Shown: positions 3 through 24,250 of the stretch, one piece after another | How the letters are laid out: every line of letters begins with the position of its first letter | Numbering within the stretch: the stretch's first letter is position 1 | Virus record (IMG/VR): IMGVR_UViG_3300032278_000015 | Location: 1 to 48,388 of that record | DNA length: 48,388 nt | DNA from: a virus | Strand: one strand, 5' to 3' | Program-made: the position numbers and the translations under genes | The notes under the pieces: generated by a model | Databases searched by the model: none | What the model was told of the DNA's origin: nothing | The model's input: only the letters and a program-made list of their open reading frames with translations

Positions 3-3000
3 GAACAGGCTATCCAAGACTTTATTGATAGGATCAATTCTGATACAGACCTGAGTACTTTCGATAAAACCTTTTTGCTTTCAATCATAGAGGATAGAGA
101 AGACTCTTGGCGAAGCCCCCATTGGGGACACGAGAAAAAGGTGATCGCTCATTTCAGAGCGCACCAGAGAGAGGCGCCATCCGTATGGGAAGGCATTCGT
201 CAATTTTTCCACATTGATGAAATCCAATCCGACCGTCACCACAGAGCCAGAGACAAGGGGATGGCTGGTAGGGAACCTTTTATAGATGAACTGATTATGT
301 CGGAAACAATGGTCAGGGCTTGGAGCGACTTGCAGCGGATTCCCCCATCGGGGCGCCCCACCAACTGGCGCCTGAATATTCCGGAACCAGCAGACGCGCA
401 ACCCGACTATCACGGAGTCGCCAGAATAATGTTGGCCGAAGAGGGTAATGAAGCCAACCTAGTGACGATCCCGTTATTCAGCGGCTGGGAAATTTACGAG
501 AGTGGTAGATGGGTATCTGTTGATATGGATTACCTCGGTGATCAGATTCAAAGGGGTGAACAGGAGGTCTCTCAAGTCGATAGATTGCGCAATACTCTTA
601 CTATTGACCCCCGAATAACCCGTGGTGTATTGCCGTTACAGCGTTTACGGAGCATATCCACAGCCGCCGGAAAGAGCAACGTAATCGTGCGTCGCAGGTC
701 TATAGTTTCCGTAGGGGAGGCCAGACTCGGAACAGTTACATTAACCGCAGAGGAAAGGGCGGCTTTGAAGGTTTATATCAATGCGTATAACGCACTGGTT
801 ACACATCAACACCTAAAGGGGGCGGCGGCTGTATTCAATATACCTGAAGGCGAAATTCGTAATGGCGATTTTAGTGGCATCAGCGTACCCGACCGCACTG
901 ATGAGTCAGGAGAGTTAGTTGGGTGGACGCCATTCAAGGACAGTTGGCAGGCATTGATAATGAAGCACGCCCTCGTTCAGGCGGCTAACACTGGCCATAA
1001 CGTGGTTACTTGGATTTCCGGAGAGCAGTCCGGAAAGAGGTACAGATCACTCTCCAAGATACAGAAACTTCGCGCCAGATGGGACCAAGAGACTGACAGA
1101 TATTCAGTAACGTGGACGACCATCCCCGGAAATGAGACCACTAATAATTGGCAGTCACGCATATCCTTAACAGAAGAAGAATTAAAGAATACGGTAGGAA
1201 ACAAATTAGCCAACAAGATAATCAAAGACTCTCGCAACGGAACAATAGAGATTCCTCAAGTTTCTATCTTTCCGTATGTGGATCGGGGGCATCACCAGAG
1301 GTTTGAAGTTAGGGCATATTTACCAGAGGTGTCGGACGGCGCGGAGAATACATGGTTTGTTTTTGATGACACTCGAACCAGAGAGCAGGCGGAGGCATCA
1401 GTAGAGAGATACCTTTCACTTGCCGGGGCCAAGCAGGTACTAACTAATTATGACAACCTATCCGAACCCATTGGGGCTGATCTGCACAGAACAATATATG
1501 ACAATATTCTTCCGAAGTATGTAAGGCGTCTCATAAAGAAGTATCCGGGTTCTACGTTGGAATTAGTCTCCATGCCTGTGGAGGAGTCAGCCGACCCAAT
1601 TAAGATGTCCGCTGAACCCAGCCCCATTCGTGATTCATTATCTGAAATAGGGAGTGTCTATTTCTCTGTGCACGAAATATCGGATGAAAACAGTACGTCT
1701 TACACATTCAAACTTACCAGTGAGGCCACGGGTCTCGCGGGGGAGGCCAAGACACGCATATCGAACCGTTTGAGTTTTTGGGGCGACGAAGGGGTCTTTG
1801 GCGGCACCGTTGACTCCAGTGATATAAGAATTCCAGACAATGCGACTTTAGATGAGGCGGTCGGGATTGTACAAAAGTTTGTAGAAGAGAATAGGCGTGA
1901 CCCGTATAAGGTTTGGCGTCTCGATATGACAGACGAAATGAAGAGAGACCTGAGAGACAGGGGTCTTCCAATGTATTCGATGCCATACGAAGCGCCGATG
2001 ACGATGTCTGATCCTAAACCCACAGCACAGCCTTCAGAAAAGACTGCGGCTGATGCAAGGGCGGAACTTGTTAGCCAATATGGTGAAGACAATATAAGGA
2101 ATCTTGAGGAAAGTGGTGTCCTGAAGATTGTGGATGGCGTAGACGGCTTACCTGTCGGCCTAAATGAGGGCAAATACAGTTCAGCGGAAGGCATCTATGA
2201 CGGCATAAACAGTACCGCTTACCTGATTGCGAGCAACATCAGGGATGGCGGGGCTTCTGGTGTGCTTATGCACGAAGTTGGTGTCCATTTTGGCCTGCGT
2301 CGTATGGTTGGTGCTGTCGCTTTTGATGACATTCTTCAGAAACTTCTCAGCGGGAAAGAGTCTGCTGAGTTTAAGCCGTACTTCGACAGAGTGAAATCTT
2401 CCTATGAGGCGCTTTTAGAGAGCGGAGATGTTGTTGAGGATACCGACGAGTTCTTGGAAGAGGTTCTCGCCAAGATGGCCCAAGATAGAAATGCTCAGAA
2501 TATGGGGCTGCTTCAGGAGTTGTATGGGAGAATGCGTGTCTTTCTCTCAAAGTACTTTAAGGGAATAGACTTAAAAACAAGTGATCTTCAGGCTCTGGTT
2601 AGGGGTTCTCTCAGGAAGTCCATGAGAGGAGAGATTGATTTCCGAGGGCAGCTAATCAGGGATTCTGTATTTGCCTCTTTTGTTGATAATAACCTTACCA
2701 GAGCGGGCAATTTCTTCAATATCCTCACCAAGAATGAGGACGTTTATAAACCAAGTGAATTTCCCAGCAACCCGACAGGTCGTGTGCATGATTCGTCAAG
2801 CCATACTGCCTTCACCCACATTTCAGTGAAAGAAGATTCTATTGCCAAGGCGGCGAGAAAAAGGATGGTCGCCGCGCTAATGGCAATGGAAAAGATGTTT
2901 TACGAAATGGGGATTAAGGGGGCGGTAATAGACTTCCCCGCTCCCAACAAAAAATCCATGAGGGATGGTGAGCGATTGGTTCGCGTAAGGATGGGCGATG

Positions 3001-6000
3001 AAATGCTCACCATCCGGTTCGGATTCGCACCAATAGACCCTAATCTTCTCGCGATGATTGGCCCTATCGTTGATTTTGGAAGCATGGGGATGGTTTCTGG
3101 AAAGGGATCAATCTCTCTTACGAGGATGACTAACGACATCAGGAAGGCGTTAGAGTTGTTCAGTCAGGGGAAACTTAAAGAATCGTCTGGCTACAAGATG
3201 GCTTTGGATCACAAACTTGGTCTTCTCCCTGACCCCGCAGTTACACCGGGTTGGGATGGGAGAGCATCCTACATGGACTACATGCTTTTATTGTGGCGAG
3301 AACTAGACCCCGGCAGGGGGCGGTTGATGATCGAGCATAGTCAAGTTGCCTATGATTATGGATTCATTACCGAAGAGATGATGGCGCCCAATCCCGATAA
3401 GAAAGGCGTTGGACGAAAACCGACTAAGCATTACTCTATGCCGGACGATTCTGAAAACGACCTTTCGACAGAAGACAGGGTGCTACTGAATCGGGTCACT
3501 GGTAGAACTAAGCGTCGCGGACTTTTCAGTAACCTTGAAGAGGCTAGAGGACAGACCATGTTGTGGTTGTCGCAGGGTCTTGTTGATAAGTACAGGAGTG
3601 TGCGTAATAGATTGGGTGAGGCTGGGGAGCAGGCTTGGATGATGATGCACCTTTCGGATAACGTCCCCAACCTTATGCACGCGGTCTTGCAGTTTGGTAA
3701 ACCAATCGCTAGGCAGAGGGATGGAAAATTTGACGGGTACGATATTGATCCGAATACCGCAGGACTCATAGAGATTATGTGGGGGCTTGAGGGAGAGGTC
3801 GATAGATTTCTATCTTGGATAGTCGGCCACCGTGCCGCCAAGTTAATGAAGGAAGGCCGTGAAAAGAACTTTTCTGAAGAAGATATAAAGCGTCTCAAGA
3901 ATCTTGCCAGAGGGATGACTGCCAGTGGGAAACAAAGGCACCTTCTTTATGCCCAGACTATGAGGGAGTTGGGTAAGTTTCAATCAAGCATACTTGACCT
4001 CGCTGTGGAGGCCGGAACTATTTCCAAGGAAGATAGGCCAGTACTGGCTTCTGATTTCTACGTCCCGTTTTACCGCGAGATGGAAACTGCTCGCTCTGAC
4101 ACTGTTCGCGGCCCAGCAATGACCGGAAGTTTCGTAAACATTAAAGATGTTGTTCACAAGTTGAAGGGTAGTGAACTGGAAACCAATGATGTATTGCACA
4201 ACCTCTTGATGAATTGGGCCGCACTTCTGGGCGCGTCAATGAAGAATCGCGCTGGAACTGCCGCCGTGGAGGCCGCAGTAGGAATGGGGTCGGCGCGATT
4301 GGTTGAAGATAAGCAAGAAGCATCTCAGATCGCTTTCGGAAAGTCGAAGACTTCTACAAATAAATTTGAAAACTATATTTATATCCTAAAAGACGGGAAG
4401 AAAGTGTGGTATGAAGTTAGCGATAATTTAGTTTTGAAGTCTTTGTTGGCCCTTAATTGGTCCGGCGTTGATAACGGCTGGATGAAAGCGGCTTCCACCT
4501 TTAAGAGGTGGTTCACATTAGGAGTAACAGCAAGCCCAGCATTCAAAATACGCAACTTAGTCCGAGATTCTGTACACACTATTGCAGTAGGAGAAACAAG
4601 TTACAACATATTTGGAAATGTAGCCAAGGGATTAAAACGCGCCCAAGTGGCTGACCCCGTTTACCAAAGTATGCTTGCCAGTGGTGGTGCTTTCTCATTT
4701 GGATTTCTGCATGATGACCCGTCTGCTATACGCAGGCTTCTAAGAAGGGGAGTGAAACAGGCAAATGTTTTAGACACCAGCAAGAAGGGGTTGGGGTTTG
4801 CTCGCAAGTTGTGGGATGGTTACGGAGAGGTGGGTAACCGAATGGAGAACGCTAACCGCGTAGCGCTGTACCTTAATCGCGTAGACGAAGTTGGTCACAT
4901 GCAAGCCTCTTTTGAAGCTAGGGATTTACTTAACTTTTCAAGTCATGGAAGTTTCCTTGCGACTCAGTATTTAATCGGAGCGATCCCCTTCCTAAACGCT
5001 CGCATACAGGGACTCAGCAAGATTGGAAGGGCTGTGGGCGGTGACCAGCGCGGGCGAGCTATGGTTGTAGTAGGCTCGTTGATTCTGGCAAGTGTTTTGT
5101 ACGAACTGTCTATGGATGACGATGAAGAATACAAGAGCCTGCCTGATTGGGTTAGAGATACATACTGGCCTGTCAAAATGCCGGGTGATGACGCTTGGTT
5201 CTACATCCCCAAACCTTTTGAAATTGGCGCTATTGCTTCTGTAGCCCAGCGGTTTACACAAACATTTGTAGATGAAAGCGCCAATCCAGCCTTTTTTGCA
5301 AAGCGTGTCGGTGAGATTCTTATGGATCAACTGGCCTTCGATTGGCGCCCGCAAATAGTACGCCCCGCTTTGGAAGTTGGATTTAACTATGATTCTTTCA
5401 GAAATAAAAGCATTGAGTCATTAGGAAAGCAACTCAACACACCAAAACATAGAAGGGTTACAGCAACGTCGTCTGACTTCTCTATTGTCTCCTCTCAGGC
5501 ATTTCAAGATTGGTTCGGAGGAACACCACTATCACCGGTTCAAATAGATCATCTCATAAAGGGGTATTTTGGTTGGCTTGGCGCAACTATTGTCGGAGCG
5601 GCGGATTTTGTTTTGTATCCGTCTGAGCCGGAGCAACCAACCAAACGATGGGATGAGATGTATGGTCTGGTTCCTGTCGGGAGTTTCTATAAGCAGGGTC
5701 CGCCTAAGACGACCAAGCAAATGCAACTTTTCTGGGAACAACTTAAAGAGATCAAAGAGCATCACAGCATTTATAAAGACTACTTAACGCGCGGGCTTGA
5801 TGATGAACTCAAGGAGTATCTAGCGAAGAATAGACAGTCTCTTGTCTGGAGAAAGCATTACGAAAAGATGCAGAGGCACCTTGGAAAGATAAACAAGAGA
5901 ATGACTCAGGTTTATGATTCAACCGATATGACGGCAGACGAGAAGAGGGTGGAGATAGATCGCCTGATAGAAATGAAAAATAAGTCGGCTGAAAGAATTA

Positions 6001-6662
6001 TAAACATGAGAGAAAGAGCGGAAAAAAGGAGCAACCAACAGTCTTCTTTCTCCATAATAAGTTCAGCCAAAGCCGACTCAGGTGAAGACGTAGAAACAAA
6101 CTACGATGTTCAAGCGCTCCAGAAAGCCATACAAACTGGTGATTTGTCCGCATATCCCCGATTAGCTGGGGAGGGGATTGTCGGTAATTTATACAACTCT
6201 ATTATGTCAGCAGAATTCAGAGGCGCTAGGGGTTCATTGGGAAGTAAATTTATAAGAACAAGGCACGCCCCAGCGAAGGGGTCCACTGCTTATGGGCCAC
6301 TGCAAATAACTTTGAGCCTTATGACGAGCGGGAGCGCCCAATTAGATTTGACTGATAAGGAGTCCGATTATGTTGTTCGGTTCAAGGAGCAGGCCCGCTT
6401 GTTCCTTAAATACGGAAGGGAGCCAGACAAGGAAGGATACCACCCAAGATACGATTACGGTGGTAGTGGCGACTTAACTTCCGATGAAGATAAAGCGCTG
6501 TATGAAAGTGTTGGTAGAAAATTGATACAACTTGTCCTAGACCAATCTGGTAACGATACGGATGAGTTTATCAACCAGTGGAGATACGGCAAGGGGAATA
6601 AGGGAGATGTATCCAAAGATGATGAAAAATATTACGCCGCTTTCAAGGAGGCTTATAAGTAA
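3..6662 (+). CDS. Large virion polyvalent protein, 5' end outside window (LPD38-type)
   Basis: The reading frame is open to the first base, so the N-terminus is missing; a TTG at 75 is only the first possible internal start. Residue numbers here count from that TTG. An EIQSD motif (about 49-53) and a TPFKDSW block (about 285) match regions common in phage polyvalent proteins. HEVGVH at 2271-2288 (about residue 733) is a zincin-type metallopeptidase motif. From about 1480 to 1750 there is an LPD38-like region with the hallmarks RNLVRDS, SLPDWVRDTYW and IPKPFEIG. Near the C-terminus an AEFRG glutamate (about 2047) followed by STAYGPLQIT (about 2071) resembles a lysozyme/transglycosylase core. 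Such proteins are usually packaged and ejected, and peptidase plus muralytic parts would fit envelope crossing. Ejection is inference; the family-level call is firm. Confidence 0.88.
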   Translation, partial: EQAIQDFIDRINSDTDLSTFDKTFLLSIIEDREDSWRSPHWGHEKKVIAHFRAHQREAPSVWEGIRQFFHIDEIQSDRHHRARDKGMAGREPFIDELIMSETMVRAWSDLQRIPPSGRPTNWRLNIPEPADAQPDYHGVARIMLAEEGNEANLVTIPLFSGWEIYESGRWVSVDMDYLGDQIQRGEQEVSQVDRLRNTLTIDPRITRGVLPLQRLRSISTAAGKSNVIVRRRSIVSVGEARLGTVTLTAEERAALKVYINAYNALVTHQHLKGAAAVFNIPEGEIRNGDFSGISVPDRTDESGELVGWTPFKDSWQALIMKHALVQAANTGHNVVTWISGEQSGKRYRSLSKIQKLRARWDQETDRYSVTWTTIPGNETTNNWQSRISLTEEELKNTVGNKLANKIIKDSRNGTIEIPQVSIFPYVDRGHHQRFEVRAYLPEVSDGAENTWFVFDDTRTREQAEASVERYLSLAGAKQVLTNYDNLSEPIGADLHRTIYDNILPKYVRRLIKKYPGSTLELVSMPVEESADPIKMSAEPSPIRDSLSEIGSVYFSVHEISDENSTSYTFKLTSEATGLAGEAKTRISNRLSFWGDEGVFGGTVDSSDIRIPDNATLDEAVGIVQKFVEENRRDPYKVWRLDMTDEMKRDLRDRGLPMYSMPYEAPMTMSDPKPTAQPSEKTAADARAELVSQYGEDNIRNLEESGVLKIVDGVDGLPVGLNEGKYSSAEGIYDGINSTAYLIASNIRDGGASGVLMHEVGVHFGLRRMVGAVAFDDILQKLLSGKESAEFKPYFDRVKSSYEALLESGDVVEDTDEFLEEVLAKMAQDRNAQNMGLLQELYGRMRVFLSKYFKGIDLKTSDLQALVRGSLRKSMRGEIDFRGQLIRDSVFASFVDNNLTRAGNFFNILTKNEDVYKPSEFPSNPTGRVHDSSSHTAFTHISVKEDSIAKAARKRMVAALMAMEKMFYEMGIKGAVIDFPAPNKKSMRDGERLVRVRMGDEMLTIRFGFAPIDPNLLAMIGPIVDFGSMGMVSGKGSISLTRMTNDIRKALELFSQGKLKESSGYKMALDHKLGLLPDPAVTPGWDGRASYMDYMLLLWRELDPGRGRLMIEHSQVAYDYGFITEEMMAPNPDKKGVGRKPTKHYSMPDDSENDLSTEDRVLLNRVTGRTKRRGLFSNLEEARGQTMLWLSQGLVDKYRSVRNRLGEAGEQAWMMMHLSDNVPNLMHAVLQFGKPIARQRDGKFDGYDIDPNTAGLIEIMWGLEGEVDRFLSWIVGHRAAKLMKEGREKNFSEEDIKRLKNLARGMTASGKQRHLLYAQTMRELGKFQSSILDLAVEAGTISKEDRPVLASDFYVPFYREMETARSDTVRGPAMTGSFVNIKDVVHKLKGSELETNDVLHNLLMNWAALLGASMKNRAGTAAVEAAVGMGSARLVEDKQEASQIAFGKSKTSTNKFENYIYILKDGKKVWYEVSDNLVLKSLLALNWSGVDNGWMKAASTFKRWFTLGVTASPAFKIRNLVRDSVHTIAVGETSYNIFGNVAKGLKRAQVADPVYQSMLASGGAFSFGFLHDDPSAIRRLLRRGVKQANVLDTSKKGLGFARKLWDGYGEVGNRMENANRVALYLNRVDEVGHMQASFEARDLLNFSSHGSFLATQYLIGAIPFLNARIQGLSKIGRAVGGDQRGRAMVVVGSLILASVLYELSMDDDEEYKSLPDWVRDTYWPVKMPGDDAWFYIPKPFEIGAIASVAQRFTQTFVDESANPAFFAKRVGEILMDQLAFDWRPQIVRPALEVGFNYDSFRNKSIESLGKQLNTPKHRRVTATSSDFSIVSSQAFQDWFGGTPLSPVQIDHLIKGYFGWLGATIVGAADFVLYPSEPEQPTKRWDEMYGLVPVGSFYKQGPPKTTKQMQLFWEQLKEIKEHHSIYKDYLTRGLDDELKEYLAKNRQSLVWRKHYEKMQRHLGKINKRMTQVYDSTDMTADEKRVEIDRLIEMKNKSAERIINMRERAEKRSNQQSSFSIISSAKADSGEDVETNYDVQALQKAIQTGDLSAYPRLAGEGIVGNLYNSIMSAEFRGARGSLGSKFIRTRHAPAKGSTAYGPLQITLSLMTSGSAQLDLTDKESDYVVRFKEQARLFLKYGREPDKEGYHPRYDYGGSGDLTSDEDKALYESVGRKLIQLVLDQSGNDTDEFINQWRYGKGNKGDVSKDDEKYYAAFKEAYK

Positions 6663-15676: not shown

Positions 15677-16687
15677 ATGAGACGGGTCGTAAATGGTACA
15701 ATTAATAGTGAGGGGGGAGGTTCGTCTCACAAAGTACTTGTGATTGGCGATCTTATTCTCGACAAATATATCTCAGGGAGATGTTCCCGCATCTCGCCAG
15801 AAGCACCTGTTCCGGTGGTGGTTGAGGAGAAAACCGAATATCGAGCAGGTGGCGCGGCCAATGTTGCCCTCAACCTAAAAGCGTTAGGGGTAGATTGCGC
15901 CTTGGTCGGTATCACTGGCAGAGATGATGAGGCCAGAATTCTCATGGACTTGGTGGGAGACATCCCAACTCATTTCCAGCAAGAAGATATCCCAACCACA
16001 CTTAAAACGAGGTTTCTGATTGATGGGCATCATGCCCTTGGTCGAATTGATCGTGAGTCGGTTGGAGAATTTAAGGATATTCTAAAGTACGTCAGCGGAC
16101 ATATCGGGGCCGGAACGGATGTGGTGATCGTGTCGGATTATGGCAAGCACTTTAAGACAGCCATACCGATTATTATTCGCGAAGCAGTTGCGCGTGGCGC
16201 ACATGTGATAGTAGACCCGCAATCCGATGATTGGGTTTCTTACGCCGGGGCTACGACGGTCACTCCGAACCTCAAGGAGATATCGGGCGAGGTTTATGGG
16301 GATAAAGCGGTCGAGTCCATGTATTGGTTACGGATGCGTTACGATATCGAGAACATTTTGGTGACCAGAGGAGGGGATGGCTTATTTCATTCAAGTTCTG
16401 ATGGTTGTGTTGAAGATGTTCCTGAGAAGTCGGAAGTTGTGGACGCAACTGGGGCGGGAGATACTGTCGTGGCGGCGTTTGCGGCTGGAGTTCTGGCTGA
16501 ATTGAGCAATAGGGATTGTTTGCGATTTGCAAATGCGGCGGCGGGAGATGTTTGCCGCAAGAAGGGTACTGCGGTTGTTGATGAGTCTTTCGCGCCTTGG
16601 GCGCTGGACGGTTGGTTCGATTACATGACTGACAAGACACAACGCAAAAAAGAAAAGGCCCGCCACAAACATCGTGACGGGCCGTAA
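15677..16687 (+). CDS. hldE: HldE/RfaE1-type D-glycero-D-manno-heptose-7-phosphate kinase
   Basis: 336 residues, PfkB/ribokinase family. GDLILDKYISGRCSRISPEAP matches the HldE N-terminal signature (GD..LD.Y..G..SRISPEAPVPV). Then comes AGGAANVALNL, and DATGAGDTVVAAF near residue 257 holds the catalytic Asp and anion hole. The cytidylyltransferase half of bifunctional HldE is absent, so this is kinase only. The enzyme makes heptose-1,7-bisphosphate on the route to ADP-heptose for LPS core. An AT-rich 54-nt gap and AGGAAA precede it. Its Lys/Arg-rich last codons coincide with the terminator of the opposing operon. A GT9 gene at 35936 may use the product pathway. Confidence 0.9.
   Translation: MRRVVNGTINSEGGGSSHKVLVIGDLILDKYISGRCSRISPEAPVPVVVEEKTEYRAGGAANVALNLKALGVDCALVGITGRDDEARILMDLVGDIPTHFQQEDIPTTLKTRFLIDGHHALGRIDRESVGEFKDILKYVSGHIGAGTDVVIVSDYGKHFKTAIPIIIREAVARGAHVIVDPQSDDWVSYAGATTVTPNLKEISGEVYGDKAVESMYWLRMRYDIENILVTRGGDGLFHSSSDGCVEDVPEKSEVVDATGAGDTVVAAFAAGVLAELSNRDCLRFANAAAGDVCRKKGTAVVDESFAPWALDGWFDYMTDKTQRKKEKARHKHRDGP
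16640..16683 (-). terminator. Intrinsic terminator of the leftward accessory operon
   Basis: On the minus strand GGCCCGTCAC and GTGGCGGGCC (10-bp arms, one mismatch, 7-nt loop; 16657-16683) are followed by TTTTCTTTTTTG. It lies 7 nt after the stop of the last leftward gene and within the 3' end of hldE on the other strand. Confidence 0.85.
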
Positions 16688-17783: not shown

Positions 17784-18011
17784 TTAGGTTTTATCGAGTG
17801 CACCAATTGAAAGCAAAAAGATTTTATCGAAAGTAGTCAGGTCTATAGTAGCTAGACGTTCTTTTAGCGCGTCAACCGCCTCCAAAGTAGCGGTTATTTG
17901 GCCATCAGTATCAAGATCGACCAACATCTCTAGGCCTTGCCTGATTGATTCCAGTAATTGAAAACCGCTGTGATATTTAGTCCAAGTGGCAATTCTGGGT
18001 TCATCAGTCAT
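17784..18011 (-). CDS. Hypothetical helical protein sharing a DNA patch with the polyvalent gene
   Basis: 75 residues, ATGA overlap with its upstream neighbour, GAGG before the start. The C-terminal segment LTTFDKIFLLSI is almost the same as LSTFDKTFLLSI at the left edge of the polyvalent gene. The underlying DNA matches over about 39 nt (47-85 against the complement of about 17806-17844) with two differences. Function unknown. Confidence 0.7.
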   Translation of the reverse strand: MTDEPRIATWTKYHSGFQLLESIRQGLEMLVDLDTDGQITATLEAVDALKERLATIDLTTFDKIFLLSIGALDKT

Positions 18012-18204
18012 TCGTAAAACCTCTCGTGTGGTAGTTACCCTGTCCTAAGTCTCTAAGGAACTGAAATAATTTCTTCCAATCGCCTTCAACTACGTCGATT
18101 CTGAGAAATTCCATTGTGTCATCGCAGTCGCGCACGATAATTTGTGAGTTTAAGTGGTGGACTTTGATACATGCTTGTCCTCGCGCCAGTTCTTTTTTAG
18201 TCAT
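18004..18204 (-). CDS. Hypothetical small protein
   Basis: ATG at 18204 has AAGGAGAA upstream, so the longer frame to 18282 is rejected. 66 residues with a beta/alpha pattern (SQIIVRDCDD, FLRIDVVEGDWKKLFQFLRD). First gene after the operator-rich gap and probably the head of its own transcription unit. Confidence 0.7.
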   Translation of the reverse strand: MTKKELARGQACIKVHHLNSQIIVRDCDDTMEFLRIDVVEGDWKKLFQFLRDLGQGNYHTRGFTND

Positions 18205-18254
18205 AGGTATGTTCTCCTTATGTATGTAAGCCGGGTTGTGGGAAGTTTTTTCAC

Positions 18255-18277
18255 AGAAAGATAAATAATATCTTTCT
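18255..18277. repeat. Perfect inverted repeat AGAAAGATA/TATCTTTCT
   Basis: 9-bp arms with a 5-bp AATAA centre, 50-70 bp upstream of the gene starting at 18204. AT-rich and without a U-tract on the transcribed side, so an operator is more likely than a terminator. Confidence 0.5.
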
Positions 18278-18328
18278 CTCAAAGAACTTCACGGGAGAGA
18301 TAAGAATTTGAACTCTGCTCCCCCAAAC

Positions 18329-18362: not shown

Positions 18363-18383
18363 GCCCCGTTTAACGACCGGGGC
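18363..18383 (-). repeat. Post-stop hairpin F
   Basis: GCCCCG and CGGGGC (6-bp arms, 9-nt loop), 16 nt after the stop of the 18400-19116 gene on the minus strand. Followed by CATAAGATTTCTT, so at most a weak terminator. One of six hairpins placed after stop codons in this operon. Confidence 0.6.
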
Positions 18384-18399
18384 CACGTCGTGCGAGAAT

Positions 18400-19116
18400 C
18401 TACAGATTCCTGATGTCTCGTTCTGACATGCAGACGTAGGTGCCACCGGGAGATTGGTCAGCGAAATACCCGGCATAGGTGTTGCCGATGTCAAACTCGC
18501 CCCCTATATGATTCTTGCCACCGACGGGTTCGGTGGTTGGCTCAAATTCCTTGGCGAGTTTAATCAGGGCGTCGATGATGCCGTTGTGGTTCAAACTCGA
18601 TGGCGGATTCACCGTGAGGCACGCCAAATCAGGCTTGGATTTCAGAATGCCGCTCCGACCGATCCGGAATGCACCTTCTAGTTCTTTCGGTCTTTTCTGG
18701 GCGATAACTTTAGACACGGCAGACGCCCAACATGGGCGGGCGCATAGCATCCTTGCCATCAACAACTTCTTGAGAATGAATGCCTTCTTCGCATAAACCT
18801 TGGCGTCGTACAGGTACAGCGCCACCAACGAGAAGTTGTTCATCCAAACTTCTTTGGTGGAGTCATCTGGAAAGCGGCGGGAATTTTCAGCGGAAAAATT
18901 CCGGTTGAATTCGTAACCGAATTCCTCGTCGGTGCAACGATACCACCCTTCGATTTTTTCGGATGAACCTGTGCCAGAGGCGTCAATTCGTATAGTGTGA
19001 TAGTGGTCATGGATGACCCAACTGCTAGGGTTCCTTGATTCCAGAAAAGCCTCGCTGACAGGGTAAACAGCCAGCGATGCCTTGGCGATGTTTAGATCGC
19101 GTTTCGACATTTTCAT
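18400..19116 (-). CDS. Hypothetical protein
   Basis: Up to 238 residues; GCGAGA precedes the ATG, and a second ATG lies two codons later. The N-terminal half has WVIHDHYHTIRIDA and GWYRCTDEEFGYEF, the middle a basic helical region (YAKKAFILKKLLMARMLCARP), and the end GGTYVCMSERDIRNL. No family recognised. Grouped with the AAA/VWA operon by strand and by the shared GCGAGA box. A hairpin follows the stop. Confidence 0.75.
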   Translation of the reverse strand: MKMSKRDLNIAKASLAVYPVSEAFLESRNPSSWVIHDHYHTIRIDASGTGSSEKIEGWYRCTDEEFGYEFNRNFSAENSRRFPDDSTKEVWMNNFSLVALYLYDAKVYAKKAFILKKLLMARMLCARPCWASAVSKVIAQKRPKELEGAFRIGRSGILKSKPDLACLTVNPPSSLNHNGIIDALIKLAKEFEPTTEPVGGKNHIGGEFDIGNTYAGYFADQSPGGTYVCMSERDIRNL

Positions 19117-19143
19117 AATTGTTTCTCGCAGTATCGAAAATGG

Positions 19144-19380
19144 TTAGGTGTTCAGCCAACGGATGGGGTCGGTCGTTCCGTAGTAATCGAATGGTGCGGT
19201 TACCCTTTTGTGTTCGACCCAATAGTCGCGCATGAGTTCTAAGCCGCGCTCCACACACTCACGGTGTTCACCGTGCAGGGATGGAAGGATGTCTAATTTG
19301 CAATGCTGATAGGCAACCGCTAGGGCTTTTAGATCATCGAATGACATATACGTTTTGCCGGTTAAGTAATTGATGGGCAT
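19144..19380 (-). CDS. Hypothetical small protein
   Basis: 78 residues; GAGAGA precedes the ATG at 19380. Helical, with HGEHRECVERGLELMRDYWVEH and a C-terminal TDPIRWLNT. Unlike its neighbours it is not followed by a hairpin; the next start is 27 nt away. Confidence 0.7.
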   Translation of the reverse strand: MPINYLTGKTYMSFDDLKALAVAYQHCKLDILPSLHGEHRECVERGLELMRDYWVEHKRVTAPFDYYGTTDPIRWLNT

Positions 19381-19408
19381 GTTTATCTCTCAGTTGTGAT
19401 GTGAATAT

Positions 19409-19442
19409 CGTAATACCCACTCGCGATTGAGTGGGTATGGTC
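19409..19442 (-). repeat. Post-stop hairpin A with conserved flanks
   Basis: On the minus strand ATACCCACTC and GAGTGGGTAT (perfect 10-bp arms, 19413-19438), 6-nt loop. Preceded by ATCGACC and followed by TACGAT. The outer ATCG/CGAT can pair, leaving an ACC/TA internal loop. It starts about 9 nt after the VWA gene's stop. Confidence 0.75.
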
Positions 19443-19447
19443 GATGC

Positions 19448-20698
19448 TCACACGACCTCGACAGATGTCCCCCACGGTGCGGGGGAGAATCCGTATGTGT
19501 TGCTGATCGCCCAGAACACGGGATAATCAGGCTCGTCGGGGTAATCACATTCACCGTCGGTGAAGTAGATCAAGGCAGTCGGCGTTGAGTCCATATTATC
19601 TTCAACCCATCTGAATGGTGGCTTGAATGATGTTCCACCACGTCCACCTAACTTGAATTCGCCAACATCTTGCGGGATATCATACGATTCGAATTCCCGT
19701 ACCTTACCGATGCGGGAGTCGCATGGGATAACGGTGATTGAACAGTCCATCTGCTCGACCAAGGTGATTGTCTCCGACATGAATTGTCGCAACTCTGAAT
19801 CAGAGACCGATCCAGATGTGTCCACCGCAATAACGACGTGATCAATACCCTCACGTTTCATGCTGGGCAGGTACTGGCCCCTGCCGATAAAGCGTCGGTT
19901 AGGCTTAGACCACGTTGTGTCGAAGTTGTTGCCAGAATCTGAGAGGAAGTTGGCCAGTGTCTCCGACCAGTCGATCATCCCCTCGTTGCGACCTTGGATG
20001 GATGCCAGCGCCTTGCCCGACATTGTGCCTCGCGCCTTTTCCTGCGCGATTGCAATCTGGACGGCACCTTCCCATTCGTCTGCGGAATCGGTGTCGGCGT
20101 TGCCGTCTTCGTCGGTGGCCTCGCGAAACTCTCCGAATTGCCCTGACTTAACCGCCTCGCTGAACGTCGGCACATCATCCGGGCCATATTCTTTTTCCGT
20201 TTCCTCTCCAGAAGTACTTGGTGAGTTGTTGCCATCGCCTTGCCCGTTCGAGTCATCACCGGCATCACCGGCATCATCGGCATCATCCTGATTGGCGCGG
20301 CGTTGGGACTCAAGGTCGGCGTACACCCATTCGGTGGACTTGCCGTCATACTTTCTGTCGAGCAATATGTTGGATAACAGTTTGAACCCGTCATTAAGGC
20401 AAACGAGATTGATTACATAGTCACCCGCTTGATTGAACAACTCATGGTCTCGCGAACCCTTGCGCCACGGGTGCTTGAGGATGCAGTGAAGCACCTCATG
20501 CAAGACCAGAAACAATGATTCTTGCTTGTCTATCTGATCGACAAAGTGACTGTTGAATCCGATCACCTTGCCGTCGGTGTAGGCTGTCGGTTGGGTGTTG
20601 TCTTCAACAATATTGAGGCGTAGTGCAAGCGCCCCGTAAAACGGACGCTTTAGTAACAGTCGCGTCCGCGCGTTCTCCATTTTGGATAATGCGTTCAT
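19448..20698 (-). CDS. DUF2201-like metallopeptidase/VWA-domain protein
   Basis: ATG at 20698 with GCGAGA upstream; 416 residues. N-terminal zincin-like part with VLHEVLHCILKH (HExxH at 67-71), then an acidic low-complexity linker (about 145-190), then a C-terminal VWA-like domain. The MIDAS residues are complete: DTSGSVS (D293, S295, S297), GGTSF threonine (about 356) and FTDGE aspartate (about 381). This layout matches DUF2201 proteins, which pair with MoxR/CobS-type AAA ATPases. The two are expected to act as a remodelling machine. The partner ATPase is the next gene upstream. Confidence 0.88.
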   Translation of the reverse strand: MNALSKMENARTRLLLKRPFYGALALRLNIVEDNTQPTAYTDGKVIGFNSHFVDQIDKQESLFLVLHEVLHCILKHPWRKGSRDHELFNQAGDYVINLVCLNDGFKLLSNILLDRKYDGKSTEWVYADLESQRRANQDDADDAGDAGDDSNGQGDGNNSPSTSGEETEKEYGPDDVPTFSEAVKSGQFGEFREATDEDGNADTDSADEWEGAVQIAIAQEKARGTMSGKALASIQGRNEGMIDWSETLANFLSDSGNNFDTTWSKPNRRFIGRGQYLPSMKREGIDHVVIAVDTSGSVSDSELRQFMSETITLVEQMDCSITVIPCDSRIGKVREFESYDIPQDVGEFKLGGRGGTSFKPPFRWVEDNMDSTPTALIYFTDGECDYPDEPDYPVFWAISNTYGFSPAPWGTSVEVV

Positions 20699-20732
20699 GT
20701 TTTTCTCGCATGTTGTTGATGCTTGATTGCAT

Positions 20733-20770
20733 CGTGATACGCCCTCAGGTGATAGTGAGGGCGTATGGTC
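20733..20770 (-). repeat. Post-stop hairpin B with conserved flanks
   Basis: ATACGCCCTCA and TGAGGGCGTAT (perfect 11-bp arms, 20737-20766), 8-nt loop. Minus-strand flanks ATCGACC before and CACGAT after, as in hairpins A and C. Begins 12 nt after the ATPase stop. No U-tract follows. Confidence 0.75.
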
Positions 20771-20778
20771 GATGGAAT

Positions 20779-21807
20779 CTAGCCCGTGAGTGCTTCCCGG
20801 TGAAGGGAAATCACTTCGGCGTAGACTGGGTGTTGTGTTATATCGAAGAAGCCAAGTGCCATAACATCTTTGGCCCAGAGAACTTGCCAATCATCTGGCA
20901 ACTTGATCATAAACTTCCAGATGTTCTCGACGTTGTCCTCGTCGGCACGTCGTGCCATAGCGCCCGTTACACCGTGACGCAGGTCACTCTCTACGGGGTC
21001 GTCGTGATCGTCGGGGTTGGCGATAATATCGTCGATATCAGGCAACTTGCGCAACGTCTTAATGAACCCGATAAACTCACTACCAGCACCTTCACCGACG
21101 GCACCAAGTGTATAGGTGCGCACGATGTCGCTGTCCTCATCAACGGCGCTGATGATTGATGCGAGATTAGTCCATGACCTCAATGAAGGGTAGGCCGGGG
21201 ATGTGGACTTGGGATCGTACTGGTAGCACAATTCGGGGCGCCACCTGAGAAACGAAACGACCCGCTCATCGACGCGATTAGCGACCGCCCATTCGCACCA
21301 ATCGTGACTGTTCACGACCAGTTCATAATGCATGAAACGGTTGGCGGTATGCGCGGCCATGCGGTTGGCGGCGGCACGATCAAAGTGCCTGTTAGATGCG
21401 GCGAACACCACGACGTTATCAGGTAGCACATAGTCGCCTAATCGACGCTCGTGAATAATCTGACCAGCAACGGCGGTTACTGACCCGTGCGCTTGCATAA
21501 TCTCATCGAGGAATAACACCGTTGGGCCACAACCCTCGACCGGCAACGTTGCGGGTGGAGCGTAGTGGGTGCGACCATCGTCGCCGATGTATGGAATACC
21601 GCGCACGTCGGCGGCGTCCATCTGGGCCAATCGCCAATCGATAATGGAGAAGCCGTTCTCGACTGCAATCTGCCGCATGTGTTCGGTCTTGCCACAACCG
21701 GGCGGCGACCATATGCACATAGGTATTTTAGTGGCCAGATGCCCCCTGACTACTTCGGCAAGGTTGGCATGGTATACAGGTACAGCAGTTAACTTGTTGT
21801 TTTCCAT
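20779..21807 (-). CDS. MoxR/CobS-like AAA+ ATPase
   Basis: ATG at 21807 with GCGAGAGA upstream; 342 residues. Walker A SPPGCGKT (34-41), Walker B VLFLDEI (97-103), sensor-1-like VVVFAASNR, and the ADVRGIP loop typical of MoxR/CobS ATPases. The family uses ATP to remodel partner complexes through VWA proteins. A VWA gene follows immediately. A third protein is encoded upstream, giving the common AAA/VWA/partner set. The target in the infected cell is unknown; host takeover, defence or virion-related work are all possible. Confidence 0.9.
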   Translation of the reverse strand: MENNKLTAVPVYHANLAEVVRGHLATKIPMCIWSPPGCGKTEHMRQIAVENGFSIIDWRLAQMDAADVRGIPYIGDDGRTHYAPPATLPVEGCGPTVLFLDEIMQAHGSVTAVAGQIIHERRLGDYVLPDNVVVFAASNRHFDRAAANRMAAHTANRFMHYELVVNSHDWCEWAVANRVDERVVSFLRWRPELCYQYDPKSTSPAYPSLRSWTNLASIISAVDEDSDIVRTYTLGAVGEGAGSEFIGFIKTLRKLPDIDDIIANPDDHDDPVESDLRHGVTGAMARRADEDNVENIWKFMIKLPDDWQVLWAKDVMALGFFDITQHPVYAEVISLHREALTG

Positions 21808-21851
21808 GTGGAAATTCTCTCGCAGTTGTTTATAGGAACAGATGATAAAAT

Positions 21852-21882
21852 CGTAATGCGCACCAATGTGGTGCGCATGGTC
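21852..21882 (-). repeat. Post-stop hairpin C with conserved flanks
   Basis: ATGCGCAC and GTGCGCAT (perfect 8-bp arms, 21856-21878), 7-nt loop. Flanked on the minus strand by ATCGACC and TACGAT. Starts about 11 nt after the stop of the 21890-22831 gene. Confidence 0.75.
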
Positions 21883-21889
21883 GATTGCA

Positions 21890-22831
21890 TCAAAAGTAGG
21901 ATGCTGATTTTTGCTGGCAGGTTTTCGACAACGTGGCCTTAGTGACCCCGGCATCTTTCGCCGCTTTGCTCGTTGCCTTGGCGACATTACGGGCCGCTGA
22001 TGCGGTGTACTCTCGCGCGGATGGTGTTTCGCGTATCTGAGCGTCGCTGTACTTGAGCATTTTCCGTGCCTGCTTGGCCAGTTCGTTCAGTTCGGGGTCA
22101 TCGTCGATATTACCGGCTGGTATAAACTCCTCGACAAGGTCGCGCACGTTGCCCAGCAATGATGGGAATATCTTGCCCTTCTCCTTCGCGCACTCGTTAG
22201 CGACGTGGCTGGCATGTTCCAACAATCGACGCAACAACTCGCGCTTGATTTCGCCGACCATTTTAGACTGTCGTTCGTTAGCCTGCGCTTGCATCTTGGC
22301 GGTATGCGCCCCGGCATTGATAGACTCAATAGTCGGCAGACCATCGACGAATACTTCGGCGTGGAATTGGTCGCGTGCCTGCTCGGGTGTCGGGTAGTCA
22401 GACTCCTTGAACATCTGACCGAGACGGATTTTCTCTGACTCGATCCAGCGCGGGAGTGCGGTGCATTCCTCATCAGCGCGGTGGTGGAAATCGTCAATCG
22501 CGACGGTGATCTCATTAAGAAACTTTTCGGCGATCTTAGTCGGTAAGACCTGCGGCCCTTTTTGTTGGCCGCCGCCGTTCTTCGGCAGGGGAAACGTGAA
22601 ACGATACAGCGTCGAACGGATGCGGCTCGATGCTCGTTGGGTGCGCGGGAATGCGTTGTCTAGGATGCGCTTTTTAACCTTAGTACTGCCGACCTTGGCG
22701 TCCTTGGAGATTGCCAACTCCCGGCTTACTGCATCGTCACGCACTAACGTATTGAACATCGACACGCGGACGCTGGCCAGCATCGCGGCCTCAGATAACA
22801 CGGCGCCGCGCTTGGTGGATTCTATTTTCAT
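21890..22831 (-). CDS. DUF3150-like partner of the AAA/VWA pair
   Basis: 313 residues; GCGAGA precedes the ATG. Almost entirely helical and charged, with a basic middle and a C-terminal Ala/Lys-rich stretch (SAARNVAKATSKAAKDAG). Its length, helical make-up and position next to CobS- and CobT-like genes fit DUF3150 proteins, which accompany such ATPases in phages and mobile elements. The family call is by context and character, not by a decisive motif. Confidence 0.65.
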   Translation of the reverse strand: MKIESTKRGAVLSEAAMLASVRVSMFNTLVRDDAVSRELAISKDAKVGSTKVKKRILDNAFPRTQRASSRIRSTLYRFTFPLPKNGGGQQKGPQVLPTKIAEKFLNEITVAIDDFHHRADEECTALPRWIESEKIRLGQMFKESDYPTPEQARDQFHAEVFVDGLPTIESINAGAHTAKMQAQANERQSKMVGEIKRELLRRLLEHASHVANECAKEKGKIFPSLLGNVRDLVEEFIPAGNIDDDPELNELAKQARKMLKYSDAQIRETPSAREYTASAARNVAKATSKAAKDAGVTKATLSKTCQQKSASYF

Positions 22832-22860
22832 TGGTGCTTGTCTCGCTGTTGTTGCAATAG

Positions 22861-22880
22861 ACTCCCGACCTCACGGGAGT
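22861..22880 (-). repeat. Post-stop hairpin D
   Basis: ACTCCCG and CGGGAGT (perfect 7-bp arms, 6-nt loop), about 20 nt after the stop of the 22901-23368 gene on the minus strand. Lacks the ATCGACC/ACGAT flanks of hairpins A-C. Confidence 0.65.
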
Positions 22881-22900
22881 TTCGGATACTCTAATCCTCG

Positions 22901-23368
22901 TCAGTATTGCTTGGGGTTGGGGATGCCGCGCGCATCCTCTGGGTTGTAGTGTTGATTCAATACAATTTCGGGGACAATGGTCTGGCGCGGCGCGGGGACT
23001 TGCATAACCAGTACCGCACGCTCAATACCTTCAAGGTACGCTCTCATGCGGTTGTACAGGTCGCGCTTGGGGACGTGGCCACAGTTGAATACATCAGTCA
23101 CGGCGCCGTTATCGTTGGCGGTGCGGTGTAAGCACACGCCGCCATACGCGCCGCTGATGTGGTAGTGGCCGATCTCAATCTGCCACGTTTTGCGGTCATA
23201 CTTAGCATCGCGCCAAGTTATCTGTCTAATGGGGTCGCCGTTATTGTCACGGGCGTGGTAAGTGATCGGCGCACCTAGTGCTTTATTAATGAATAGCGCC
23301 ATATGCTCTAATTGCGTTGCTGTGATTCGTTGCATAGATAAAGGTCTCATTGTTTCGGGGTGACTCAT
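22901..23368 (-). CDS. Hypothetical protein
   Basis: Up to 155 residues; internal ATGs at codons 7 and 12 are alternatives and no start has a good SD. Contains ITWRDAKYDRKTWQIEIGHYHISGAYGG, then VCLHRTANDNGAVTDVFNCGHVPKRDL, which looks like an ordered beta-rich domain, then a helical part and a Pro-rich C-terminus. Possibly part of the AAA/VWA operon. No family recognised. Confidence 0.65.
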   Translation of the reverse strand: MSHPETMRPLSMQRITATQLEHMALFINKALGAPITYHARDNNGDPIRQITWRDAKYDRKTWQIEIGHYHISGAYGGVCLHRTANDNGAVTDVFNCGHVPKRDLYNRMRAYLEGIERAVLVMQVPAPRQTIVPEIVLNQHYNPEDARGIPNPKQY

Positions 23369-23371
23369 CAG

Positions 23372-23392
23372 GTAGGGCTACCAATGCCCTAC
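23372..23392 (-). repeat. Post-stop hairpin E
   Basis: GTAGGGC and GCCCTAC (perfect 7-bp arms, 7-nt loop), 14 nt after the stop of the 23407 frame and directly before the next ATG. It could hide the start of the following gene. Confidence 0.65.
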
Positions 23393-23406
23393 AACAATGA
23401 ATAGTG

Positions 23407-23676
23407 TTAGCGGTTATCGTTCCTCGCTAACTTTCCCATGCAACGCGCCGAACTGCTTATCTCGTTAAGGGGACGGTCACCCAGACTTAACTGGCTGATT
23501 GCGCCGACCGATCTATTAGATTTTCGTGGGTGCTTGCTAGGCGTTGCTCTCCTCACAGTTGAAGGCAACTTGGCCACGGGCAACTCAGCATCTTGGTGCG
23601 ACCCCCGATTCGATGGTGCGACGTCGCGCACGGGCTTAGTGCCGTCGGGGTTCTGAACTGCCACGACGGACATTAC
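23407..23676 (-). CDS. Probable small basic protein at the head of the leftward operon
   Basis: 89 residues from ATG at 23676; the upstream frame continues to a TTG at 23766, so the start is uncertain. Ser/Pro/Arg-rich and basic, with NPDGTKPVRDVAPSNRG and ATPSKHPRKSNRS, probably disordered. Support comes mainly from placement: its stop is followed by a hairpin just as in the other genes of this operon. Function unknown. Confidence 0.45.
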   Translation of the reverse strand, partial: VMSVVAVQNPDGTKPVRDVAPSNRGSHQDAELPVAKLPSTVRRATPSKHPRKSNRSVGAISQLSLGDRPLNEISSSARCMGKLARNDNR

Positions 23677-23766
23677 AGGAAACACCAGCCTGATACATGG
23701 TGAAATAGTGGCTTCGATATGGCACTTATCAGCGTGAACAAACAGGGATAAGTTATTGATATACAA

Positions 23767-24250
23767 GGGGAAACCCGTACAGGCTCACGGCGGAATAAGC
23801 GCGAGTCATAAGGGGCTAGGGTATTACTTCTCTTAAAGTGCGTTACAAGACCATACAGGGACGCATAAGGGGGAACCTAATCACCCAACCTTGGCCGACC
23901 CCTGATACCGGGGGGGTTGGAGTGGGGGTTGTGGGATGGTATGGCACGGCCCGGTCGGACAGCGGAACAGACAGAAACTGCGGCCTGATCGACTGACCAA
24001 CTCCTTGCCAACGGCTGGCTGACTCCTCGCTATGGTCGGGGGCGTGTCTCCCCGTGTTCGCAATGATGAAGGAGTCCCGCGCGGAAGTATGAACGAGTTT
24101 CGATGCGTGACAGTTGGGGGTCGCGTGTGTGGGCGAGGGGCTAACAGACTCATACCGTATAACCATTCCCTACGTCTGAGGCTAGTTTTCATTTCCATTA
24201 CCCAGAAAACCCAGTGTTTATGCGGGCTACCGGGGGGAGTTATTCTCCAT
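23767..24250. other. Gene-free structured control region between divergent units
   Basis: No credible frame on either strand. Several nested inverted repeats: CCAACC (23885) with GGTTGG (23915) enclosing CCCC/GGGG; GACTCCT (24021) with AGGAGTC (24070) enclosing a GGGG/CCCC hairpin. It should carry the leftward promoter for the AAA/VWA operon and the rightward promoter for the 24251 genes. I see no consensus -35/-10 pair. An origin or a structured RNA are alternatives. Confidence 0.4.

Follow-up and report, generated by a model that had tools for sequence, protein, structure and literature searches.

Hammerhead-like sequences, a covarying stem-loop family and a pseudoknot at the gene junctions of a marine phage operon

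The stretch of DNA analysed here, which we refer to as the window, comprises the whole 48,388 bases of a marine phage record. The phage encodes an SU10-type portal, its nearest named relatives are Vibrio phages (49% identity in the major capsid protein) and a comparison with phage records found no similarity at the DNA level. The features of interest lie in a leftward, minus-strand operon that runs from approximately 23.4 kb down to a canonical intrinsic terminator at 16683-16657, which is the sole strong site in our list of predicted terminators, is also a folding outlier and probably represents the operon end. The operon includes a gene at 22901-23368 with no Pfam or PHROG match, a DUF3150-like gene at 21890-22831, a MoxR-like AAA ATPase gene at 20779-21807, a VWA/metallopeptidase-like gene (DUF2201) at 19448-20698 and a further gene at 18400-19116, with the AAA and VWA genes assigned by Pfam and PHROG matches. 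The DUF3150-like gene was identified by a Foldseek search with its predicted fold, which is similar to those of phage proteins, one of them a DUF3150 protein; the gene is conserved in relatives and adjoins the AAA and VWA genes. In five phages, a GC-rich, apparently non-coding leader of approximately 0.4-1 kb lies 5' of the operon (window 23400-24180, minus strand; L214 11950-12890; L215 7620-8660, minus strand; L218 8520-8995; L217 1150-1990, minus strand). The leader opens with a conserved block (CTGAGACGTAGRGGATGTTTATACNGTATGAG...AAGCCCC...YTATCACG) and possibly comprises a promoter and a large structured RNA. Elsewhere in the window, a long imperfect hairpin at 18233-18297 lies 5' of the ORF at 18004-18282, its Rfam miRNA match being at chance level, and positions 75-6662 of the plus strand encode a 2195-aa protein with an LPD38 domain.

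The original prediction placed hairpins after the stop codons of this operon at 18363, 19413, 20737, 21856, 22861 and 23372, and all six are present at these positions. None has a U-tract and none of the six appears in the terminator list; the GC-rich hairpin followed by a U-tract that characterizes intrinsic terminators is found at none of them and the strong terminator of the operon sits elsewhere, at 16683-16657, upholding the view that simple termination is unlikely. The placement after stop codons stands except at 23372, which has no convincing gene before it: the ORF whose stop codon precedes this hairpin (23407-23766) returned no tblastn match in relatives, and the stretch it occupies aligns with their poorly conserved, apparently non-coding leader. 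Among 44 junctions, the only folding outliers are the terminator and the three junctions with the hairpins at 21856, 20737 and 19413 (z = -4.4, -7.5 and -4.8 for these three junctions), and none of the 34 rightward stop codons in the window has a z below -2.4. The junctions of the 22861, 23372 and 18363 hairpins (z = -1.7, -0.8 and -1.5) fold no better than ordinary ones. Rather than forming one class, as had been proposed, the six hairpins fall into three, namely hammerhead arms, a family with shared flanks and one half of a pseudoknot.

Judged by their common flanks and paired stems, the three flanked hairpins are one RNA family. Element 1, between the DUF3150-like and AAA genes (21850-21885, minus strand), reads AUCG-ACC-AUGCGCACCA-CAU-UGGUGCGCAU-UA-CGAU; element 2, between the AAA and VWA genes (20731-20773, minus strand), reads AUCG-ACC-AUACGCCCUCA-CUAUCACC-UGAGGGCGUAU-CA-CGAU; and element 3, after the VWA gene (19407-19445, minus strand), reads AUCG-ACC-AUACCCACUC-AAUCGC-GAGUGGGUAU-UA-CGAU. 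The flank sharing claimed for these junctions is borne out, since the window contains exactly three occurrences of ATCGACC...ACGAT versus 0.13 expected, and also three of a tighter flank pattern versus 0.00 expected, and the flanked pattern is not present outside the operon within the window. Including the relatives there are seven copies, which consist of an outer helix with a minimum of 4 bp (mostly 4-5 bp), a 3x2 internal loop with [A/C]C[C/U] opposite YA, an inner helix of 9-11 bp and a small loop. All 91 of 91 cells are paired (100%), two-sided changes occur in 9 of 13 pairs, and covariation is 0.718 compared to 0.205 in shuffled controls and at most 0.18 when partners are slid, values that describe seven copies from only two lineages that were recognised partly by their pairing. 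The outer ATCG/CGAT helix had been called invariant and is not, as one copy in a relative carries ATTG/CAAT, a compensatory change. No Rfam family matched the element at its gathering score or gave a useful match, no description of the family was found in a limited literature search, and it is apparently undescribed so far; phage operons with hammerheads and intergenic repeats such as the extended start-associated sequences (ESAS) are both already known. Mimicry of CRISPR repeats is disfavoured because the stems differ between copies, Racr being viral solitary CRISPR repeat units that mimic one CRISPR repeat (PMC10651486), and no CRISPR-family Rfam match was found at the elements.

Approximately 80 relatives were gathered from a capsid-protein alignment. 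One of these, L214, carries the operon with an AAA protein that is 59% identical, and L220 is near-identical to L214 across the operon. L214 has four flanked elements, located before the DUF3150-like gene, between the DUF3150-like and AAA genes, between the AAA and VWA genes and at a later gene, two of which (also in L220) occupy the same junctions as in the window with different stems. For the flanked copies, the claim of selected RNA structure is thus supported, the nearest relative keeping both shared junctions with different, fully paired stems. The outcome that was to count against it, stems lost or unpaired in related phages, is not seen in this nearest relative; the element is absent from L215 (AAA 45% identical), in which the junctions are short, and from L218 (62% by local alignment), in which the gene order differs. 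Because it was found only in the window and L214/L220 and is missing in L215 and L218, the element is lineage-specific. A covariance model returned only the known copies across 1.1 Mb of relatives, as did a general descriptor across 4.25 Mb, and a scan of 2.9 million viral contigs with the tight pattern returned known relatives and unpaired chance matches only. Wider pattern scans of viral and genome contigs gave, among the matches listed, chance occurrences with incomplete stems; scans with AAA or VWA as single proteins found no relatives, and a six-row alignment of distant AAA sequences contained no usable conserved stretch. At the AAA to DUF3150-like junction of L218 (10030-10075) there is a distinct 9-bp hairpin (TGCGCCCTC/GAGGGCGCA) followed by CACAAAC, which may be a decayed form related to the flanked element.

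The position of the element bears on its function. It begins 2-7 nt past a stop codon in six of seven copies, the seventh being preceded by the non-coding leader, and all seven lie on the sense strand with the next ATG 26-42 nt further on. An element that is repeated, lineage-specific and missing from the same junctions of L215 could act at the DNA level, as a small mobile or recombinogenic repeat or a dyad binding site with no RNA role, but the orientation of 7/7 copies along transcription just past stop codons, stems that vary yet pair, including through U-G pairs that would be mismatches in a DNA dyad, and the restriction of copies to the operon within the window make this very improbable. 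The main rival to the formation of transcript boundaries is translational control of the next gene, whereby the hairpins would be translational operators or start-associated elements, similar to ESAS and perhaps bound by a phage protein, that together with a CAACTGCGAR motif govern initiation without any RNA processing. This is suggested by the ATG 26-42 nt past each element, usually accompanied by a CAACTGCGA-type motif, and by the precedent of ESAS, in which inverted repeats are joined to a conserved start-associated sequence (PMC3203893). In the window, motif inspection places the start-associated motif CAACUGCGAG 5' of the AAA gene (21818-21827, minus strand), with variants beginning near 22848, 20712, 19395 and 19132 on the same strand, and in both lineages CAACTGCGAR-type motifs recur ahead of the following start codon. 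However, the elements are held more tightly to the preceding stop than to the next start, they leave the ribosome-binding site free, and the start motif also occurs past hammerhead B (see below) and at 19132, a junction with no hairpin. We therefore regard translational control as possible but unlikely. We are similarly tentative about the flanked hairpins being sites for RNase III processing like those that divide T7 early mRNA, which would be a specific form of our preferred explanation: the intercistronic sites, asymmetric internal loop and near-constant 9-11 bp upper stem fit such signals, while the lower stem of 4-5 bp falls short of the long two-part helix of T7-type sites, in which the lower stem spans about 10 bp or more, and, given that flank and loop sequences are fixed, recognition would seem to be more specific than RNase III requires.

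Two sequences that, by their core and stems, look like hammerhead ribozymes account for the hairpins at 23372 and 22861, each of which forms one arm. Hammerhead A, which was detected by descriptor scans at 23346-23401 (minus strand), would be type III with stem III open and has the layout UUCAUUGU U↓GUAGGGC-AUUGGUA-GCCCUAC CUGAUGA GUCACCCC GAA ACAAUGAG (arrow, predicted cut, between 23393 and 23392 after the triplet GUU). Its stems I, II and III measure 7, 1 and 8 bp, making stem II minimal; the 23372 hairpin is its stem I, and loops I and II could form a 3-bp GGU/ACC contact, as identified by eye. Hammerhead B, detected by descriptor scans and a weak Rfam match at 22854-22910 (minus strand), would be type I with stem I open, reading GCAAUA CUGACGA GGAU-UAGAGU-AUCC GAA ACUCCCG-UGAGGU-CGGGAGU C↓UAUUGC, with stems I, II and III of 6, 4 and 7 bp and a predicted cut between 22860 and 22859 after GUC. 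The 22861 hairpin is stem III of hammerhead B, and no tertiary contact between its loop I and stem II was identified. Both sequences possess three helices around the core CUGANGA...GAAA with A15.1-U16.1 and H17. Hammerhead A had no Rfam match and hammerhead B matched RAGATH-1-hammerhead partially, at 24.6 bits (E = 0.014 over 101 nt) against a gathering score of 56.3, a detection threshold rather than a defining feature that neither A nor B reaches. Processing, one of several roles originally proposed for these hairpins, is the best reading for 22861 and 23372, for a reason that had been missed, namely their likeness to hammerheads.

The two candidate ribozymes surround a single gene (22901-23368, minus strand). 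Its stop codon (22903-22901) is contained in the CUGA core of hammerhead B, and the ATG at 23368 falls within the core of hammerhead A, the more likely start being the in-frame ATG at 23335, which follows a GAGA purine run. In a different viral contig, L303, a 51% homologue of this gene (2001-2267) has no hammerhead that we could see nearby, and the gene and the ribozymes are therefore not obliged to move together. A and B are the only well-formed hammerheads on either strand of the window by descriptor scan; when 3.3 Mb of loci were scanned with a strict descriptor, the only two hits fell within the window, and 300 shuffles produced two, equivalent to 0.007 expected per window. Because the descriptor found no hammerheads in relatives, A and B have no support from covariation. 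This absence, together with the 1-bp stem II of hammerhead A and its lack of an Rfam match, is what would be anticipated if the hammerhead-like sequences had arisen by chance or were defunct remnants, with function limited to the flanked hairpins and pseudoknot. The two strict hits, against an expectation of 0.007, share the sense orientation and lie at consecutive junctions of one gene, which argues otherwise, and we consider this explanation improbable. Hammerheads that flank single genes, cluster and cleave polycistronic RNAs have been described in phages, with cleavage shown for some, and hammerheads with a one-pair stem II and a loop pseudoknot are reported to be active (PMC3088659).

The remaining hairpin, at 18363, is stem S2 of an H-type pseudoknot (18363-18391, minus strand) that arises because the 5' flank of the hairpin pairs with the hairpin's own loop (S1 ACGAC/GUCGU, L1 GUG, S2 GCCCCG/CGGGGC, L3 UAAA). 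In the window it follows the gene at 18400-19116, and the same architecture with different S1 sequences is found past the VWA stop codon in L214, L215 and L218, such that four phages have a pseudoknot after a stop codon. The descriptor found none at the 43 other window junctions and at most 1.1% of shuffles per site contain one, an optimistic figure since the descriptor was written after three cases had been seen. Pistol-like ribozymes offer one comparison for this site; with no Rfam match and no third stem in relatives, we take it to be a plain H-type pseudoknot. In three relatives CACTATCAC lies just 3' of the pseudoknot (L214 16338-16360; L215 4089, minus strand; L218 12343), and this 9-mer is also present in the loop region of flanked element 2 (20757, minus strand). 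As a candidate phage RNA polymerase promoter it was set aside, having only chance-level matches in the window.

Collectively, these observations lead us to lean towards a model in which intercistronic RNA elements divide a polycistronic transcript, the structures being supported by sequence and the function inferred. We favour boundary formation because three unrelated structures have their position at gene boundaries in common. Assuming a single promoter, the leftward operon would be read as one long mRNA that probably ends at 16657. The two hammerheads would self-cleave this transcript on either side of the first gene, leaving 5'-OH and 2',3'-cyclic-phosphate ends, and at the next three junctions the flanked stem-loop may serve as the boundary element. 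Its inner stem could block exonucleases or incoming ribosomes, and its fixed internal loop could be recognized by a protein of phage or host origin, for which an endonuclease specific for double strands or a repressor would be the simplest candidates; lying a few nucleotides past the stop and approximately 30 nt before the next start, the element is clear of the next ribosome-binding site. The pseudoknot past the gene at 18400-19116 may play a comparable part at a junction further downstream. One promoter would in this way give rise to separate mRNAs that differ in expression. Counting against boundary formation are the 1-bp stem II, GUU triplet and missing Rfam match of hammerhead A, the score of hammerhead B below gathering, a lower helix in the flanked element that at 4-5 bp is short for canonical RNase III sites, the absence of this element from L215 and L218, and the limitation of its seven copies to two lineages. 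A more speculative idea, to which we give very little credence, is that the flanked hairpin represents a compact cleavable RNA of a new class, in which the fixed [A/C]C[C/U] / YA loop undergoes self-cleavage or is cut by a dedicated phage ribonuclease; a cleavable hairpin would then do at three junctions what hammerheads do at two others. Overall, our analysis suggests that one phage operon uses unrelated RNA structures, namely two hammerheads, a pseudoknot and a stem-loop family with no Rfam match that was not found beyond two phage lineages, to mark gene boundaries. This makes the purpose of phage hammerheads testable: if hairpins and ribozymes are interchangeable as boundary marks, swapping them should keep expression.

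Several known systems come close to these structures. The leader of T4 gene 32 provides another phage mRNA with a small H-type pseudoknot; the one at 18363 differs in lying past a stop codon inside an operon. RNase III sites in T7 early mRNA have an upper stem of approximately 10 bp, an asymmetric internal loop and a lower stem, with one cut at the loop; the flanked hairpins share the intercistronic position, the approximately 10-bp upper stem and the asymmetric internal loop and differ in their 4-5 bp lower stem and fixed flank sequence. Like the clustered hammerheads of phages and prophages (PMC3088659), A and B place type I and type III in one transcript, flank a single gene and include one minimal stem II, whereas here, as predicted from sequence, they share the operon with covarying hairpins and a pseudoknot, and A falls outside the Rfam models. 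In cluster K mycobacteriophages, ESAS are inverted repeats with conserved arms beside a 13-bp start-associated sequence (SAS), GGGATAGGAGCCC (PMC3203893), and the flanked hairpins resemble them as repeated intercistronic inverted repeats in one orientation that are each followed by a recurrent start-associated sequence. They are not ESAS in the strict sense, as the stems vary and the start motif is CAACTGCGAR: here the arms are free and covary, it is the short flanks and internal loop that stay fixed, and the element sits immediately past the stop codon before it.
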